From positions 4,960,001 through 5,024,000 of the forward strand of contig NZ_CP042912.1 in the NCBI RefSeq assembly GCF_008087665.1: DNA of 64,000 bases. Reading direction: 5' to 3'. Shown piece after piece: positions 17,175 through 20,100 of the stretch. The notes beneath the pieces were generated by a model. The model had not been told where the DNA came from. It was given only the letters and a program-made list of their open reading frames with translations, and did no database searches. The translations under genes were made by a program, and so were the position numbers. The stretch's first letter is position 1, and each line of letters begins with the position of its first letter. Origin of the DNA: Mariniblastus fucicola. Its GTDB lineage: Bacteria; Planctomycetota; Planctomycetia; Pirellulales; Pirellulaceae.

Positions 17175-20100
17175 CTACAGCTTGCCGCCGTCGAGTTCGT
17201 CTTGCCAAGCCTGGAGTTTTTCCCACTCGCCGGCAGCAGCCAGCGCGGCTTGTTGAGGCCAGGTCGTTGGGTCCATCGTGGCAATCATTCCGCCTTCAGC
17301 GGCCAAGATTTCCTTGATCGAGTCAACGGAGGCTTCTGACAGTTTCTGGAACGTCGGGATGCCGCCAGCGATCAGAAGCTCGCAGACTTTCGGGCCAACG
17401 CCTTCGACTTTGGTGAGGTCGTCGGGCTCTGTTGGAGTCACGACTTTTCCGCCATCCAGTTCGTCCTGCCATTGGTTTAGCTCGTCCCATTTCCCTTCAG
17501 CGGCCATCGCGGCTTGCTGCGGCCAGGTTGTCGAGTCGTGGTTGCCAAACGTGCCATCGGAGTTGGTCAGAATGTCCTTGATATCCTGCGATGACATCGA
17601 AGCCATTTGAGCAAACGAAGTTACGCCCGCATTGTTGAGAGCCTCGCCAATCTTTGGCCCGATGCCTTCGATCTTTGTCAGATCGTCCGCTGGAGCAGCA
17701 GGTTCTTCGACGACAGGTGTTGCTTCGGCAGGAGCAATTGATTCTGCACCCGGCTCGCGACCGCCGACCAATACATCTTGCCAAGCACGAAGCTTGTCCC
17801 ATTCGCCGTTGGAAGCCAACTGAGCCTGGTCGGGCCATGTCGTTGGATCGTGATTGACGAAACTGCCACCTTCTTCGGCCAACAACTCACGGATTCGATC
17901 CGGGCTGGTGACAGACAGCATGGTGAAGCTTGCGATTCCAGAGCTGCGAAGGACGTCAGCGATTTTCGGTCCGATACCTTCAATCATCGTCAGATCATCG
18001 CCGCCAGTCGGAGCACGTGCCGGAGCCGGAGCGGCCGCCGGAGTATCCTGAACGACGCCAGCATTTGCCTCGACGCCGAACTCTGCTCCCAGTTGGTTCA
18101 TCGCATCTGTGCCGGCCATCGCAGCCATCAGGTCGTTGGAACCATCGACGACTGGAGGAGCAGTTGCTCCACCGCCTGCGTCAGGCGTAGCACCATCTTC
18201 GAGCAACGGGAAACTGCTTTCGAGCGTTGCCTGAGGCTTGGCTGCAGCTGCTTCCATCGCTTCCATGTTGTACTGAACGTCCGAGTTCTGGAACGACTGG
18301 AATCCTGTACCGGCAGGAATCAGGTGACCGAGGATGACGTTTTCCTTCAGACCGACAAGGTTGTCGACCTTTCCAGAAAGAGCCGCTTCGGTAAGCACCT
18401 TTGTTGTTTCCTGGAACGACGCCGCCGAGATGAAACTGGAACTCTGGACCGAAGCCTTGGTGATACCGAGCAACTGCGTGCTGCTGGTCGCGGGCTTGGT
18501 CTTGGTTCCCTTACACGGCTTGCCACCGAGAGTTTCAATGCGGGCGTTGGTTTCTTCGATGACGACTTTCGGCACGATTTGACCCTTGGCAAAATCGCTC
18601 TCGCCAGGATCAGTGATCCGCAGGCACTTGGCCGTGTTCGCATTGACTTGCTGGAAGTCAAAACGATCGCAAATCAGACCCGGCAGAAGATCAGTATCGC
18701 CAGCCGTTTCGATTTTCACTTTACGAAGCATGCGAGCGATGATGACTTCAATGTGCTTGTCATTGATTTCTACACGCTGGCTGCGGTAAACCTGCTGAAT
18801 CTCATGAGTCAGGTAATCCTGAACGGCTTCTTCGCCAGAGACGCGGAGAATGTCGTGAGGAACCAGCGGACCTTCGACGAGCTGCTGTCCGGCGGTCAAA
18901 CGATCGCCAGATTGAACCAGCAAACGCTTTCCAGGCGGAATCATGTGTTCCGCTTCCATTTCGCTCTCTTCGTTGGTCACGATGAGCGTACGCTTGCCGC
19001 GTTTCTTGTCTCCAAGAGACACGATGCCATCGATCTCCGCGAGAACTGATGGATCCTTTGGCTTACGAGCTTCAAAGATCTCGGTAACACGAGGCAGACC
19101 ACCCGTAATGTCGGAAATTCCGGACGCTTCACGAGGTGTTTCGGCCAGTGCCGTACCTGTCGAGATCGTTTGGCCTTCGTCGACAAGAATGTTGGCTTGC
19201 TCAGACAGGTAGTAAACATCGAGCGGCTTGCCTTCAGCGTCTTCGATGACGATTTGCGGATGCAAGTCACCTTTGAAGTCGATGATCGTTCGACGAATCG
19301 TACCGGAAGCCTCTTGTTCGGCCTGCATCGTTTCGCCTTCGATGACATCTTCGAAGCGAACTTTACCAGCGACTTCGGAAAGTACTGGAGCCGCAAACGG
19401 ATTCCAACGACAGAGGACAGCGCCTTCTTTGACTTCGGCACCTTCCTCAACCAGCAACATCGCACCGGCAGGAATCGCGTACGACTCAAGGTCACGACCG
19501 CGATGGTCAAGGATCGCAATCTCAGCATTCCGATTGAGCACAACGCTTTCGCCTTTGTCGTTCACGACGTGACGCATACGCATGTACTTGATCGTACCGG
19601 CCTTCTTACATTTCTCTTCGTTCTTTTCGGTTGACGTCATCGCAACACCACCGATGTGGAACGTACGCATCGTCAACTGAGTACCAGGCTCACCAATACT
19701 CTGAGCCGCGATGATACCGACCGCCATGCCTTCTTCGACCATGTCACCGGTCGACATGTCCATTCCGTAACAGCGTCGGCAAACACCAAGCGGTGCATCA
19801 CAAGTCATCGGGCTGCGAACCTGAATTTTCTCAAGGCCCATCTCTTCGATCTTGCGAGCGATATCTGGTGTGATCATCTGCGATTCAGCAACAACGACTT
19901 CGTCCGTTACCGGGTTCACGATGTTCTGACGCGAAACGCGACCACGAAGAGCTGTCGAAATACGAACTTCGACTTGCTCACCACGATAAATCACACCTTT
20001 GGAGATACCGCGGGTCGTACCGCAGTCTTCCATCGTGACGACAACGTTTTGTGCAACGTCGGCAAGCTTTCGAGTCAGGTAACCCGAGTCAGCTGTCTTC

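Follow-up and report, generated by a model that had tools for sequence, protein, structure and literature searches.

What is the RNA polymerase (RNAP) of a planctomycete doing with a string of helix–hairpin–helix (HhH) domains at the end of its β′ subunit? The question is raised by a stretch of 64,000 nucleotides of the Mariniblastus fucicola genome (contig NZ_CP042912.1, positions 4,960,001 to 5,024,000; hereafter the window), in which rpoC, encoding β′, occupies positions 17175..22448 of the minus strand, as do all the features of its tail described below. The gene is one open frame of 1757 amino acids with a GTG start (the ATG at 22433, its sixth codon, is an alternative) and matches TIGR02386 with 1709.7 bits. 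An initial annotation of the window had remarked that an ordinary RpoC ends near residue 1400, and correctly so: the core closes with a conserved 17-residue C-terminal stretch (18300..18350) that finishes near residue 1384. Beyond it lie an acidic linker of about 100 residues (18000..18299), disordered-looking by composition and carrying a net charge of −11 over 117 residues counted from LKENV, and three HhH repeats. We read these repeats, tentatively and at a little under even chances, as a flexible and multivalent protein-docking arm analogous to the acidic repeats (AR) of NusA or to the C-terminal domain of the α subunit (alphaCTD).

Three helix–hairpin–helix beads on β′

The repeats had been described as an 82-residue tandem; the triplet at the β′ C-terminus stands, whereas the regular spacing does not. 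Each unit is 81 amino acids long (17757..17999, 17445..17687 and 17181..17423 for repeats 1, 2 and 3), and because the spacers measure 23 residues (17688..17756) and seven residues (17424..17444), the tail is better described as three beads on unequal linkers. Pairwise, the repeats share 51, 57 and 53% protein identity and 55.6–60.5% DNA identity, with 33 of the 81 columns invariant among the three.

Their assignment to the HhH class was borne out by profile searches, in which Pfam HHH_5 (PF14520) matched the tail above its gathering score in three stretches (78.0 bits against a cut-off of 27, E 7e-22). DUF4332 (PF14229) likewise scored 38.6 bits against a cut-off of 23.2, yet its best stretch covers positions 54–88 of 122, and we rejected the tail as a DUF4332 domain with most of that domain left unmatched. 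To the acidic repeat of NusA there is remote profile similarity only (TIGR01954, 17.6 bits, below the cut-off of 48.15), and alphaCTD (PF03118) does not figure in the tail's list of families at E ≤ 1, a search in which HMMER filters may lose weak matches. NCBIfam NF008915 reached 89.5 bits (E 2.8e-25) against a whole-protein cut-off of 281, the match involving the HhH tail alone and covering the last 78 positions of the model; such a score is therefore what one expects of a shared module. The NCBIfam models for L21, S2, NuoE and phasin proteins (NF008915, NF008916, NF008966, NF009040, NF045508) match through their C-terminal parts, below whole-protein cut-offs, and by sequence their tails are the same module in C-terminal fusion.

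Structure prediction, which the initial annotation had proposed, supports the picture of beads on a string. AlphaFold modelled repeat 2 alone as an all-helical unit with a mean predicted local distance difference test score (pLDDT) of 90.8, while the linkers are predicted to be disordered, with pLDDT below 50 over most of the first spacer and at tail residues 184–189 in the second. HhH proteins are among the best structural matches of the modelled repeat, at middling Z scores.

The first two copies change slowly. Against the nearest relative, L235 (we use L for loci, G for genomes and g for genera), whose RpoC is 97% identical to that of the window and carries four repeats, the non-synonymous divergence (dN) is 0.016, 0.035 and 0.082 for repeats 1, 2 and 3, compared with 0.027 for the core and 0.086 for the linker; against L236 the values are 0.082, 0.076 and 0.27, with 0.060 for the core and 0.245 for the linker. 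The ratio of dN to synonymous divergence (dS) with L235 is 0.008 for repeat 1, 0.018 for repeat 2, 0.036 for the core and 0.058 for the linker, and not computable for repeat 3. We rely more on dN, since dS is high to saturated and the tail has larger values than the core. By this measure copies 1 and 2 are roughly as conserved as the catalytic core, and the linker is clearly less so.

Distribution and history of the repeats

Our family sample comprised 241 genomes of the window's GTDB family, in 221 of which the C-terminal core of rpoC was found; tails were read from 245 stretches (several per genome) located by a fixed motif, loci that fail the motif (e.g. L066, L269) being excluded. A repeat profile gave matches at E ≤ 1e-6 in 37 of the 241 genomes, some first-look candidates having gone unscored, and 35 of the 221 with an rpoC match carry the repeats in frame on RpoC, the remaining two of the 37 (G014, G612) having matches in other proteins only. 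The 35 comprise 26 genomes of the window's genus, three each of g286 and g290, and one each of g291, g292 and g321. The comparison of RpoC C-termini thus recovers the extension, in frame, in 34 family genomes besides that of the window, which rules out a sequencing artefact of the latter. Within the window's genus every genome with an rpoC match (26/26) has repeats; G012 and G014 gave no rpoC match. Complete tails bear one to four copies, and the counts are too low for G008 and G466, which are cut near a contig end, and for G538, which is broken between frames. In genus g286 the tail of G452 is complete and repeat-free; for G450 the lack of repeats is unsure because the tail runs off its contig. 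Among repeat-free family tails (n = 45) the median length beyond GTGF is 76 residues (range 49–275), and repeat-free relatives finish in an acidic, linker-like stretch. The longest repeat-free tail (L203, the RpoC of G480) has 292 residues from LKENV and consists of repeats rich in Pro, Glu, Ala and Ser, with no HhH.

Outside the family, none of 392 genomes from the phylum and 396 from the order yielded an RpoC fusion, an absence that is not absolute given that some first-look candidates were left unscored. Among 80 named planctomycete loci, 79 of them with readable tails, four carry repeats (L038–L041, named Pirellulaceae or Planctomycetaceae), and Rhodopirellula, Lacipirellula, Aeoliella, Tautonia and the remaining named loci of this set have none. 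Genome G015 holds a second rpoC fragment (G015:C104:22696-23151; 152 amino acids matched, 95% identical, in a 251-residue frame), which is perhaps contamination or a broken copy.

An RpoC tree of 73 rows, built without the tail and leaving out partial RpoCs, duplicates (L038 = G010, L154 = G453) and 22 further genomes, places the trait in three separate positions, and its well-supported branches require at least three changes of repeat presence. In a hand-chosen 44-row subset of this tree analysed with IQ-TREE (17 of the 25 rows with repeats and 27 of the 48 without), a single clade of all repeat-bearing RpoCs was rejected by the approximately unbiased (AU) test (p-AU 9.5e-5), the group having been defined after the 73-row tree had been viewed. 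A single gain would cost 14 losses in the 73-row tree or 13 in the 44-row tree, against three or four changes otherwise; on these sequence trees several gains or transfers are therefore a shorter account than one old gain followed by losses. For the genera around the window (g1, g286, g290 and g292) the trees do not establish separate origins of the tails: L216, which lacks repeats, falls near them with weak support. The one-contig genome G532 is placed among repeat-free relatives, its RpoC being 91% identical to L221, and the repeat tree suggests transfer of this tail out of the window's genus; a tree constrained to keep the three G532 repeats together as a clade was not rejected (p-AU 0.121).

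In trees of single repeats, the copies of g286 (support 100/99), g290 (97/88) and g291 (93/94) cluster by genus, which looks like parallel amplification among genera; with 81 columns, many forks of these trees are unresolved. Copies 1 and 2 of the window are clearly orthologous to copies in L235 and L236, and to them the description of the repeats as long-standing applies. It fails for copy 3, whose grouping with both the third and the fourth copy of L235 marks this region of the tail as variable in copy number.

Candidate roles of the tail

If the repeats are a docking arm, a normal RpoC core would lead through the linker of about 100 residues to three independently folded acidic HhH beads, whose multiplicity would raise avidity. 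Our inference is that the arm binds a protein, not a nucleic acid, that multivalency is relevant and that the partner comes from the transcription–translation machinery. Precedents exist. The alphaCTD is an HhH-containing domain on a flexible RNAP tether; it belongs to a different Pfam family from the RpoC repeats and is present in addition to them. According to PMC6614801, the second acidic repeat of NusA (AR2), a dual HhH, has SuhB and alphaCTD as its alternating partners; AR1 and AR2 differ from the RpoC repeats in being located on NusA, and not on β′, and their match misses the half of the RpoC repeat that runs from TTWPxQA to WQDxLxGG.

We considered whether the tail substitutes for a lost domain and rejected this. 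Both alphaCTD and omega are present in 18 of the 18 genomes tested, and NusA was found in 17 (not in G016, whose assembly is 84% complete). In 12 of 15 NusA C-termini, i.e. the 17 minus G451 and G433, an AR-like HhH is visible (seven with RpoC repeats, five without), and in the other three only its end, so that NusA with such a domain exists alongside the RpoC repeats. The presence of all three makes the RpoC arm an addition and not a replacement.

The obvious rival is a nucleic-acid tether, in which the GIG-loop hairpins would contact the backbone of upstream DNA or nascent RNA and hold the polymerase on its template in the manner of RadA, DNA polymerase β or alphaCTD. The hairpin is indeed canonical (E7, G8 and G10 in 66 of 66 copies, P11 in 98%), and RadA, DNA polymerase β and DNA polymerase IV are among the nearest profiles and folds. 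Non-specific nucleic-acid binding, which the initial annotation had put forward, is nevertheless not favoured, because all 50 RpoC copies computed (from 17 tails) are acidic, with net charges of −4 to −10 and isoelectric points (pI) of 4.1–5.4. Residue 12 of the hairpin, moreover, is Lys in 44 of the 66 copies and something else in 22, two of these being Arg. Four sister modules of the family, on coiled-coil and peptidase-like proteins, are basic (+3 to +6, pI 9.3–10), so charge varies with the host; in two hosts outside the family the module has a net charge of −7 (L119) and −1 (L120). On composition, this pattern argues for protein binding by the RpoC repeats, and we regard the tether as doubtful. 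Two points nonetheless count against a docking arm: a local basic face on the RpoC repeats is possible, and copy 3 diverges at the pace of the linker, which speaks against a function for every copy, although its speed is perhaps due to a comparison of copies that are not strict orthologues.

That same speed of repeat 3 would suit a tolerated ornament, a promiscuous module captured at a β′ C-terminus that accepts fusions and slipping in copy number with little function. E. coli tolerates C-terminal tags on β′, many unrelated proteins carry the module as a fusion, and the range of one to four copies goes with recent gains and losses. Neutral decoration sits badly with copies 1 and 2 being about as slow as the catalytic core, with the retention of repeats in all 26 genomes of the window's genus that have an rpoC match and with their three separate places in the RpoC tree; we consider it unlikely.

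A link between transcription and translation draws on the other carriers of the module. That similar modules decorate ribosomal proteins had been anticipated, and they were found on L17, L20 and L21. Single C-terminal HhH modules occur on L17 in G014 and G013 of the window's genus (L031, L151) and on L20 in G213, a planctomycete of another class (L118). Riemerella anatipestifer has one on L21 (L139; rplU is annotated in the record), 46% identical to the RpoC module and single, compared with up to four on RpoC. The L17 and L21 modules are acidic (−6 to −9), that on L20 near-neutral (−1). The arm might accordingly find its docking site on the ribosome or on a factor, either one that also recognises the modules of ribosomal proteins or one working with acidic NusG. 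AlphaFold models in PMC12297416 put IF2 on the KH2 and AR1 domains of NusA. Against such a link, a single-repeat search of the window genome reached nothing but RpoC at E ≤ 1e-3 (three matches, with the following one at 0.06), and L17 fusions were seen in two of the 241 family genomes, a count that leaves aside four loci with matches in frames of 527–925 amino acids (L141, L144, L145, L150). L17, L20 and L21 also sit on the 50S subunit, away from the mRNA entry site.

NusG offers a further hint of the same kind. The window's own NusG (29493-30335, minus strand) begins with an acidic extension of about 97 residues, whose net charge is −36. Across 30 genomes we compared the 60 residues N-terminal to the NusG core, or as few as 43 in shorter frames, with no start chosen. 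A net charge of at most −15 marked this segment in all 12 genomes that carry RpoC repeats, the lowest being −30, and in eight of the 18 that lack them, counts that are uncorrected for kinship, most of the 12 being close kin. Acidic NusG also occurs in repeat-free relatives of the window (G450, G484, G502, G481). The sequences thus lean towards an association of acidic NusG with the repeats, a trend that may be kinship. Of the bridge to NusG that had been proposed from the window, the association keeps some standing; a direct bridge is unlikely, both segments being acidic. We judge the transcription–translation link quite improbable.

A bolder version would make the acidic HhH a common docking tag on β′ and, in some relatives, on L17, with one receptor or a module–module contact joining the two machineries. 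We give it very little probability; were it true, the module's repeated capture by RpoC and its amplification there would be a case of parallel evolution, yielding a multivalent polymerase arm comparable in function to the C-terminal domain of eukaryotic RNAP II but built from folded beads. The pairing of acidic RpoC beads with basic modules on coiled-coil HhH proteins is attractive on charge; we set it aside as a general explanation because the window genome gave no match to such a protein at E ≤ 1e-6.

To our knowledge, a core RNAP subunit with whole folded domains strung at its C-terminus is unusual. Lineage-specific domains have been added to conserved polymerase subunits elsewhere, as with β′i6 of E. 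coli, although passages of PMC2939025 describe β′i6 and β′i2 as internal sandwich-barrel inserts, in contrast to the C-terminal HhH string of RpoC. The module itself is known from hosts unrelated to RpoC, where the sequences of solved entries reveal a C-terminal copy in reaction-centre protein O (8yy9, E 9e-9) and in a 41 kDa subunit of complex I (9wqv, E 1.3e-5). Both the module and lineage-specific polymerase domains are therefore familiar, while no description of a β′ bearing one to four such beads at its C-terminus turned up in literature searched by title and abstract opening, a coverage that omits most subscription journals. The trait points to an interaction hub on planctomycete RNAP that has gone unrecognised, and because the same module occurs on ribosomal proteins in related and distant bacteria, it provides a testable handle on the coupling or localisation of transcription.

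Further observations at the locus and in related genomes

The RpoC linker contains a short motif, FPLL (18201..18212). Motifs of this type occur in 66 of 68 family RpoC tails examined, regardless of repeats, and in 41 of 75 other named planctomycete tails (L042–L117), and may be a linear docking motif in their own right. Just 3′ of the rpoC stop lies a terminator-like hairpin of 14 pairs followed by a T run (17122..17154), the one such site in 1601 bases. It resembles an operon end, weakly so because shuffled sequence averages 1.9 such sites.

The module has further hosts, among them long coiled-coil proteins (L140, L147) and a DUF2934-like protein (L120); the names of the L17, L20, coiled-coil, peptidase-like and DUF2934 hosts are presumptive, given from sequence. 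Additional alphaCTD-like domains are encoded in the window genome, two in tandem in a 486-residue frame (L337, G000:C1:4440900-4443200) that we take to be a TPR-like protein, and one in a 102-residue frame (L338, G000:C1:4075300-4076100). Of 18 genomes, 16 have a frame with two such domains and 17 have a small one with a single domain, regardless of RpoC repeats. A full-length DUF4332 domain, of a related HhH-type family, is also present in the window genome, in a 1267-residue frame (L001, G000:C1:1242405-1242773; E 5e-17).
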